DNA of 64,000 nucleotides, taken from the NCBI RefSeq assembly GCF_001723605.1, contig NZ_CP017111.1:2108001-2172000 (forward strand), in the 5' to 3' direction. The notes below the pieces were generated by a model. It did not search any database. It saw only the letters and a program-made list of their open reading frames with translations, and had not been told where the DNA came from. The position numbers and the translations under genes are program-made. Shown here piece after piece: positions 29,544 through 32,644 of this stretch (position 1 is the first letter of the stretch; the number at the start of each line of letters is the position of its first letter). Origin of the DNA: Sulfurospirillum halorespirans DSM 13726. Lineage in GTDB: Bacteria; Campylobacterota; Campylobacteria; Campylobacterales; Sulfurospirillaceae.

Positions 29544-30785
29544 GTGAGTACCTATGTCGGTAGGCAACCGATTTTTGACAAAGAGGGTGTATGCTTTGGG
29601 TATGAGCTCCTCTACCGCTCATGCGATGCCAACAATGCAGCAACCTTTCAAGACAATGCCAAAGCCACGGCACGCGTCATTGTAAACCTCATTCACAATA
29701 TTGGATTGGCTCCTATTATTGGTACTAAGAAAGGATTTATCAATGTTGATGAGACGATGCTCTTTAGCGATGCGATTTTGCTGCTTCCTAAAGAGTACTT
29801 TGGTTTTGAGATCTTAGAGCATACCAAAGTCTCTCTCGCCCTTTATGAGCGCGTCAAACACCTTCATTCGCTTGGGTATCATTTTTCACTGGACGATTTT
29901 GACTGCAGTGATACGATGATCAAAAACTATGAGCCCCTTTTCCCGTACATTGAGATCATTAAAGTTGACATTCAAGCCATCACACTTCCCAATCTTTCAG
30001 AGTCCGTTGAGAAGATTCAAAAGTACAACATCCCTCTTTTAGCCGAGAAAATTGAGACGCATGAAGAGCATGAAGCCTGCTTACAACTACCTTTTCAGTT
30101 TTTCCAAGGTTACTTTTTTGAGCGACCTATCATCTTAAGCGGTCGTAAAATCGAACCCTATACGGAAAATGCGTTAAGGCTGATCACCTGTATTCAAGAA
30201 AACAGCGATGTTGTCTTCATCTCTCATAAATTTGCAACCTGCCCTGATCTTGTTTACAACTTGTTGCGCCATGTCAACTCTGGTGCGTACCATTTTAAAC
30301 AAAAGATTACCTCCATTAAGCAAATGGTAACCCTTTTAGGCCCTCAAAAAATCACCTCATGGTTGGGACTTTTCCTCTATGGAACCCCACACAACCGCCC
30401 TTTTGGCACAGAGATCTTTAACAACGCCAAATTTCGTGCCAAAGTGATGGAGGAACTCACCCTTACATGTAAAAAACCCGAACTTGCCAACAAAGCCTTT
30501 TTAACCGGCAGTCTCTCGTTGATTGACGCGTATCTGAGCATCCCGATGTATGAGTTCTTAAACCATGTTCAGCTGGATGACGAGATCAAAACGGCGCTAC
30601 TTTTTCGAGAAGGCTATTTAGGAGAGTTACTCAACATTAGCATTGAGATGAACCATGCGAATGATGCAGAAGAGATTCTTAAAACACTCAAAGACAACCC
30701 TTGCTTTAGTGCGAAAGAGCTTTATGAAGCCTGCATGAAAGCCACGATCTTTGTCGAAGAGAGTGAGCAAGAACATGAAAATTAA
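29544..30785 (+). CDS. EAL-HDOD protein with degenerate EAL domain
   Basis: A 413-residue protein of the YuxH/CdgJ class, starting at a GTG with GGAG upstream. The N-terminal EAL-like domain has YVGRQPIFDKEGVCFGYELLYR in place of the active-site EAL motif and lacks most catalytic acids, so phosphodiesterase activity is unlikely. The second half is an HDOD domain (ATCPDLVYNLLRHVNSGAYHF). Such proteins usually act in signalling to motility or c-di-GMP networks through protein contacts. The SelW-like gene follows after 9 bp. Confidence 0.85.
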   Translation: MSTYVGRQPIFDKEGVCFGYELLYRSCDANNAATFQDNAKATARVIVNLIHNIGLAPIIGTKKGFINVDETMLFSDAILLLPKEYFGFEILEHTKVSLALYERVKHLHSLGYHFSLDDFDCSDTMIKNYEPLFPYIEIIKVDIQAITLPNLSESVEKIQKYNIPLLAEKIETHEEHEACLQLPFQFFQGYFFERPIILSGRKIEPYTENALRLITCIQENSDVVFISHKFATCPDLVYNLLRHVNSGAYHFKQKITSIKQMVTLLGPQKITSWLGLFLYGTPHNRPFGTEIFNNAKFRAKVMEELTLTCKKPELANKAFLTGSLSLIDAYLSIPMYEFLNHVQLDDEIKTALLFREGYLGELLNISIEMNHANDAEEILKTLKDNPCFSAKELYEACMKATIFVEESEQEHEN

Positions 30786-30794
30786 GGAGATAAG

Positions 30795-31040
30795 ATGGAG
30801 ATAGTCATTTTTTATTGTACCCGTTGAGGCTATATGCCACGAGCTTTCCGTGTGAAAGATGAAATTTTAAGTGCGTACCCCAAGGCCAATGTATCGTTAA
30901 GTCCCAAAACAGGCGGTTTTTTTGATGTTGTCGTCAATGAAAAAACGCTTTTTTCAAAAACAGAGAAAATCGGCACCACCATGGAGCGTTTTCCTGAAAG
31001 TGGCGAGATCGTTTTATTGCTTCAAAAAGCAGGTTTTTAA
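30795..31040 (+). CDS. SelW-like selenoprotein (UGA at codon 11 read as Sec)
   Basis: The frame from ATG 30795 to TAA 31038-31040 has 82 codons and a single internal UGA at 30825-30827. Reading it as selenocysteine gives EIVIFYCTRUGYMPRAFRVK, the C-x-x-U redox site of the Rdx/SelW family, placed near residue 10 after the first beta strand as the family requires. The rest (KTGGFFDVVVNEKTLFSKTE, then FPESGEIV) also fits the family. A good ribosome site (AAGGAGATAAG) precedes the ATG. Ordinary gene calling would report only 68 residues from an internal ATG at 30834. SelW-like proteins are thioredoxin-fold oxidoreductases of unsettled partner. Confidence 0.88.
30838..30852 (+). promoter_or_regulatory. 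Candidate bacterial SECIS hairpin
   Basis: Ten bases after the UGA, CACG pairs with CGTG. Inside it there is a bulged A, one G-C pair and a CTTT loop. Position and size agree with bacterial SECIS elements, which recruit SelB just downstream of the UGA. The bulge differs from the E. coli fdhF form. Confidence 0.55.
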
Positions 31041-31064
31041 CCTTTACATGTAAAGGCTTCTATT
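31041..31064 (+). terminator. Palindrome plus T-run after the SelW-like gene
   Basis: The 16-bp palindrome CCTTTACATGTAAAGG lies immediately after the stop codon and is followed by a T-rich run (CTTCTATTATTTTTTT). The recurrent palindrome may here serve as a terminator stem. Confidence 0.45.
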
Positions 31065-31084
31065 ATTTTTTTAAAAGGTTTATC

Positions 31085-32644
31085 GTGGGTTATTTGACAA
31101 GCTATTGTGTACGATTTGCCTATTTTTTAGAGGCGTCAGCTCGTTACCATCGCGCCAAAGAGTTTTGCAGGATGGTTTTAGAACACCAACATTCCAAGCT
31201 CAAATTTTATTTCGATATTTTTATGGTTGTTTTGGTAGTCATCAGTGTTTTGTTTCTTCTGTATGAAGTCAAACATCCAGATGGTCACCCTTTTTTAGAT
31301 GCGTTTGTGCAGTTCTCTTTGGTGATATTTATCATTGAATACCTGCTACGTTTTTGGATTTACTCCGATAGTCACAAACTCTTTTTGGAACGTTATGAGT
31401 ATGCGATTAACAACAACCTTCCGTTTTCGCTCCGCCAAACCCTGTTTACGATTGTAAAGAAAAAAGTGGAATACATCCTCTCACCTATGGCGATTATTGA
31501 TCTTTTAGCGATTCTGCCAAGTTACCGTCCACTGCGTTTTTTGCGTATTTTTCTTCTTTTTAGAATTTTTAAACTCTTCCGTTATGCCAGAAGTATGAAA
31601 ACATTCACAGCGATCATTACGGAGAAAAAGTTTGAACTTTTTACCTTAGCGATCTTTGCCAGCTTCGTTATTTTTACAGGAAGCTCCGCCATTTACATCT
31701 TTGAAACACACCAAAATCCGAAGATCAACACCCTATTTGATGCGCTCTACTGGGCGATTGTCACGATGGGAACGGTAGGATATGGCGACATTGTTCCTGT
31801 GACGACCGAGGGAATGGTTGTTGCGATGATTCTCATCATTTTAGGCATTGCCACCATCGCTTTTTTAACATCCATCATCGTCTCTTCGTTTCAAAACAAA
31901 CTGATCGAACTGAAAGAGAGTCGCCTTTTCTCTGAGATTGAAAAACTGGAAAACTATATTGTTATTTGTGGCTATGGACGTGTTGGAGAAGTGGTTGCGA
32001 AGATGTTGCATGAAGATGGCTATAAACTGGTCATTATCGATAATGATGATGAGAAGATAAAGCTGGCACAGCAACGTGGACTCATCGGTATTGTTGCTGA
32101 TGCTTCCAAGAGTCGCATTTTAGGAGAGCTAGGTGTTGGTCAGCGTGCATCACAGATTATTTGTGCAACCAACAGCGATGAGCTCAATGTCTTTATCACC
32201 CTGACCGCTAGAAGCCTGAGTAAACAGATTATTATCATTGCACGTGTGATCAAAAATACCCATAAAAAGAAGTACTTTTTAGCAGGGGCTAACTACGCGT
32301 TTAGCGCTGATGAGACGATAGGACTTATGGGAGCACTTTACATTACGCAACCGATTTCCTATGTAGCCCTTGATGAGATGGTGACTGAAAACACGGGTGT
32401 TGTTTTTGATATGCTGCCTATTCACGAACATGCTTATTTTGTCGACAAAGCCCTTGAAACACTGGAACTTCAAGAAAAGCATCTGATCCTTTTTGGGATT
32501 TTGCGCAAAGAGTCTGAGCCTTCTTTTCAGTTCAATCCAAGTCCTAGTTTTGTGCTTCAAACCCATGATATTCTGATTGTTATGGGTCGTAAACACCATA
32601 TTAATGTACTGCGAAAGATGAATGAAAAAGGAAGCATGCGATGA
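31085..32644 (+). CDS. Six-helix potassium channel with RCK (TrkA) domains
   Basis: A 519-residue channel starting at a GTG. The first 250 residues hold six membrane segments in the voltage-gated K+ channel layout; the fourth helix region (RPLRFLRIFLLFRIFKLFRYAR) is rich in regularly spaced Arg. The selectivity filter is TMGTVGYGD near residue 228. After a helix come a TrkA-N domain with the Rossmann motif VICGYGRVGEVVAKML and a TrkA-C domain. It would pass K+ across the inner membrane under control of a nucleotide or ion bound at the RCK ring. A second RCK gene overlaps its end by ATGA. Confidence 0.88.
   Translation: MGYLTSYCVRFAYFLEASARYHRAKEFCRMVLEHQHSKLKFYFDIFMVVLVVISVLFLLYEVKHPDGHPFLDAFVQFSLVIFIIEYLLRFWIYSDSHKLFLERYEYAINNNLPFSLRQTLFTIVKKKVEYILSPMAIIDLLAILPSYRPLRFLRIFLLFRIFKLFRYARSMKTFTAIITEKKFELFTLAIFASFVIFTGSSAIYIFETHQNPKINTLFDALYWAIVTMGTVGYGDIVPVTTEGMVVAMILIILGIATIAFLTSIIVSSFQNKLIELKESRLFSEIEKLENYIVICGYGRVGEVVAKMLHEDGYKLVIIDNDDEKIKLAQQRGLIGIVADASKSRILGELGVGQRASQIICATNSDELNVFITLTARSLSKQIIIIARVIKNTHKKKYFLAGANYAFSADETIGLMGALYITQPISYVALDEMVTENTGVVFDMLPIHEHAYFVDKALETLELQEKHLILFGILRKESEPSFQFNPSPSFVLQTHDILIVMGRKHHINVLRKMNEKGSMR

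Follow-up and report, generated by a model that had tools for sequence, protein, structure and literature searches.

A SelW-type selenoprotein gene of Sulfurospirillum halorespirans, cut short or overlooked by standard annotation

Between a gene for an EAL-HDOD protein and a gene for a K+-channel/TrkA-N protein, the forward strand of the Sulfurospirillum halorespirans DSM 13726 chromosome carries a short reading frame with an in-frame UGA at codon 11. The window analyzed here is a stretch of 64,000 nucleotides (contig NZ_CP017111.1, positions 2,108,001 to 2,172,000) from a genome of 3,029,840 bases assembled as a single contig, and the features of the locus, in window coordinates, are as follows.

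29544-30785, forward strand: EAL-HDOD protein, ending 9 nt before selW, given as context (ORF list, profile match, synteny).
30784-30794, forward strand: ribosome binding site region, AAGGAG and then ATAAG ahead of the ATG at 30795 (sequence).
30795-31040, forward strand: selW, encoding an 81-residue SelT/SelW/SelH-family (Rdx) selenoprotein, TAA stop included (translation and profile matches).
30825-30827, forward strand: in-frame UGA, codon 11, the selenocysteine (Sec11) of C8-x-x-U11 (sequence; same codon in relatives).
30834-31040, forward strand: alternative 68-aa ORF from standard gene calling, without CxxU (ORF list).
30844-30858, forward strand: SECIS-type apical hairpin, stem CUUUC/GAAAG (30844-30848/30854-30858), loop CGUGU (covariation in homologues).
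31085-32644, forward strand: K+-channel/TrkA-N protein, downstream of selW, given as context (ORF list, profile match, synteny).

Read through with UGA as U, the frame yields MEIVIFYCTRUGYMPRAFRVKDEILSAYPKANVSLSPKTGGFFDVVVNEKTLFSKTEKIGTTMERFPESGEIVLLLQKAGF, in which the N-terminal CxxC/CxxU redox motif of SelW/Rdx proteins is present as C8-T-R-U11; under the standard code only the 68-aa ORF is obtained, and the redox motif is absent from it. A preliminary description of the locus had already claimed the SelW-like frame with its UGA as the U of CxxU, a ribosome site before the true ATG, and a wrong 68-residue protein lacking the redox centre as the outcome of standard calling, and each of these claims was borne out.

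Membership of the family is demonstrated by profile searches. The product matches Pfam Rdx (PF10262) with 68.5 bits (cut-off 22.6, E=5.8e-19), an expectation value that excludes a chance product, and NCBIfam TIGR02174 (CXXU_selWTH) with 48.8 bits, above the cut-off of 34.2. A model of the Campylobacterota-specific SelT/SelW/SelH family (seleno)protein, NF041051 (SelTWH_Campy), exists already at NCBI and matches selW over its full length (E=1.8e-23); the score of 82.6 bits falls short of the curated equivalog cut-off of 88, so that the protein is close to the model and not a filed member of it, and all members in the genus score below this cut-off, with most members of the f3 family above it. 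The relatives of solved structure recovered by sequence belong to the SelW type; among them is selenoprotein W (2npb), which together with the bacterial Rdx structures 2fa8, 2obk, and 3dex shares with selW the Rdx domain and its CxxC/CxxU motif; the aligned bacterial Rdx structures differ in carrying Cys where selW has Sec and in being longer (103-107 aa).

The UGA demonstrably occupies the active-site position, as it stands at the identical codon in relatives from the genus and the phylum and aligns with the UGA or Cys of homologues; relatives thus carry the same frame at this place rather than an unrelated one. A SelW match was found in 115 of the 397 genomes that made up the phylum sample, nearly always with exactly one in-frame TGA, and selW is present in 18 of 24 genomes of the genus. 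Three genus members without selW (G123, G264, and G400) retain selB and tRNA-Sec, and one of them (G264) has a formate dehydrogenase alpha (FdhA) gene with UGA; genomes that maintain the Sec trait can therefore dispense with selW.

The preliminary description had also placed a hairpin 10 nt after the UGA; the hairpin is there, but its 5-bp stem begins 16 nt after that codon. Taken in the selW sequence alone it proves nothing, because the local RNA fold energy is unremarkable (z=-0.62, single sequence) and the stem arises in 9% of synonymous recodings of the gene's own peptide. When 30700-31100 was scanned against Rfam with permissive thresholds, chance matches alone were returned, and a repeat search did not pick up the 5-bp stem. 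The same energy score and the same 9% speak for a hairpin that has no part in recoding and merely follows from coding constraint on the conserved AFRVKDE peptide, but the comparative evidence makes such an origin extremely improbable. In 44 distinct homologous segments, selected on UGA and reading frame and not on structure (one L071 segment, whose UGA and hairpin are separated by an additional codon, was left out), all five stem pairs are formed in every case, whereas after synonymous recoding of the 44 peptides (1000 draws) the full stem was present in 3.9 segments on average and in 11 at most; in slid registers only 50-68% of cells pair. Pairs 3 to 5 each vary on both sides through compensatory changes (pair 3 as U-A, G-C, C-G, and U-G; pair 4 as C-G, U-A, and U-G; pair 5 as C-G, U-A, A-U, and G-C), and the 44 segments display no fewer than seven stem sequences; as the segments are related, these counts do not represent independent events. 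Pairing is retained even where the amino acids encoded by both arms differ (F to L together with K to R), and two Cys paralogues that lie beside UGA copies, a natural control, lack the stem. The second base of the loop is an invariant G (44/44). Covariation across homologues thereby establishes the hairpin as a putative recoding element under selection, and it agrees with the epsilonproteobacterial minimal SECIS described in an earlier study, a 5/6-bp hairpin with an invariant loop guanosine (PMC4607533). A group within the f3 family with CNLU/CNFU motifs (e.g., L019) uses a different stem, CUGCA/UGCAG, unlike the CUUUC/GAAAG of selW.

The machinery for selenocysteine insertion is complete in the genome of S. 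halorespirans, where all four of the components for which a search had been proposed were found: selA (519 bits), selB (292), and selD (364, with no in-frame stop), all above cut-off and the first two adjoining, as well as tRNA-Sec (selC) with anticodon TCA (UCA in RNA). Because two FdhA genes also carry an in-frame TGA, UGA is in general use as a Sec codon in this genome. These findings weigh heavily against a non-Sec decoding of the UGA in the lineage, such as near-cognate suppression with insertion of Trp or Cys, as does the co-occurrence of selA with SelW in 113 of 115 genomes. What could be cited for suppression is one of the two exceptions, G240, where selW (L062/L088, C13, about 227944-228177) has an intact UGA frame and a compensated stem, CUCUG/CAGAG, and where no selA, no selB or tRNA-Sec above cut-off, and no UGA-FdhA were found. 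A reading of 2.42 Mb of this assembly, minus contig ends of 38 bases (contig 11) and 554 bases (contig 12), showed that the counterpart of the 2.605-2.71 Mb region of the S. halorespirans genome, where selAB, selD, and the UGA-FdhA genes are located, is largely missing from G240, and only 17 tRNAs were detected in all, none of them for Ala, Ile, Asn, Cys, Gln, His, or Tyr. To our knowledge, no living cell can do without tRNA genes for these amino acids; the assembly must therefore be incomplete despite its stated completeness of 99%, and its lack of Sec genes is accordingly not to be trusted. Suppression thus has next to nothing to commend it as an explanation for selW. In the same lineage, G401 (L063) has an intact UGA-selW with the same stem variant as G240 and no selA in an assembly that is 86% complete, and no selA was found in G405.

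That selW is a pseudogene of a Cys-type SelW, created by a nonsense mutation and leaving the downstream 68-aa ORF or nothing to be made, is refuted by the comparative data: the 68-aa ORF does exist and broken selW copies are known in two relatives (G084 and G379), but the UGA lies at the same codon across genus and phylum, the frame is intact on both sides of it, and it is accompanied by a compensatory hairpin and the full Sec machinery.

The other exception to the co-occurrence with selA is G084, in which selW is frame-broken (L070, C1 252900-253500), selA is absent, and selB is not above cut-off, as is expected when the Sec trait decays. In G379 (L066/L089, C1, about 2109622-2109863), which retains selA and selB, the frame of selW is shifted after about residue 55, either because the gene broke recently or because the sequence contains an error.

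We therefore regard the locus, with a probability of roughly 97%, as a genuine selW whose UGA is decoded by hairpin-recruited SelB. In the proposed mechanism, SelB-GTP with Sec-tRNA(Sec) would be recruited by the hairpin, UGA would be decoded as selenocysteine 11, and translation would continue to give the complete Rdx protein, which is predicted to be thioredoxin-like. Cys8-Thr-Arg-Sec11 could then form a reversible selenenylsulfide, and the product would act as a small thiol/selenol redox protein, presumably with a partner; from the comparative evidence we infer that Sec is inserted in S. halorespirans itself. The interpretation given in the preliminary description is thus supported in substance, with corrections to the spacing of the hairpin and to the rarity of the upstream neighbour.

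The finding adds one more case to an established selenoprotein family, in bacteria where such a gene was to be expected, and is not novel in kind. In the earlier literature, SelW of C. jejuni was predicted as a selenoprotein in 2005 (PMC1242214), SelW was included in a list of bacterial selenoprotein families in 2006 (PMC1794560), and SelW selenoproteins were later catalogued across the Epsilonproteobacteria, where their genes had been completely missed in annotation (PMC4607533); for C. jejuni, translation past the UGA has been shown by ribosome profiling and mass spectrometry/proteomics (PMC11955535). As described there, SelW of C. jejuni (CJnc60) and of other Epsilonproteobacteria resembles selW in its length of about 80 aa, its N-terminal CxxU with UGA as the Sec codon (PMC4607533; PMC11955535), and its short downstream apical hairpin with invariant loop G, and it too is often unannotated. 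The status of SelW as a selenoprotein, its UGA, and its hairpin are thus already published for the phylum, and our literature search turned up no publication about the Sulfurospirillum SelW. To this record, the present analysis adds a confirmed selenoprotein of a kind that routine gene prediction shortens or passes over, and clean comparative support for the Campylobacterota SECIS hairpin.

The EAL-HDOD gene directly upstream had been called an unusual neighbour; it is indeed present, but it is standard in the genus, being found upstream of selW in 18 of 18 loci examined, and the K+-channel/TrkA gene lies downstream in 16 of 18. The f3 family differs in its genomic neighbours: in 30 of its loci, tested with 1.5 kb flanks, neither gene accompanies selW. 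Judged by these gene orders, the EAL-HDOD/selW pairing is a case of genus-level synteny, apparently old enough to have outlasted a divergence of the EAL protein to about 60% identity. Pfam aligns the EAL-HDOD protein to positions 114-236 of the 236-position EAL profile, its C-terminal half alone, and the EAL domain may be degenerate. Scans for promoters and terminators around selW remained at chance level and supported no internal promoter or terminator. It is conceivable, though unlikely, that SelW in the genus acts with the EAL-HDOD protein (perhaps also with the K+ channel) in a genus-specific operon that would link selenium or redox state to signalling; the conserved pair offers a modest lead on the function of bacterial SelW.

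Tandem paralogues of selW were observed at three loci of the sample: at L068 and L069 (G269 and G160), a Cys copy stands next to a UGA copy, and at L071 (G108), there are two UGA copies, one of which has an additional codon between UGA and hairpin. These tandem arrangements constitute a natural series for Sec/Cys exchange.
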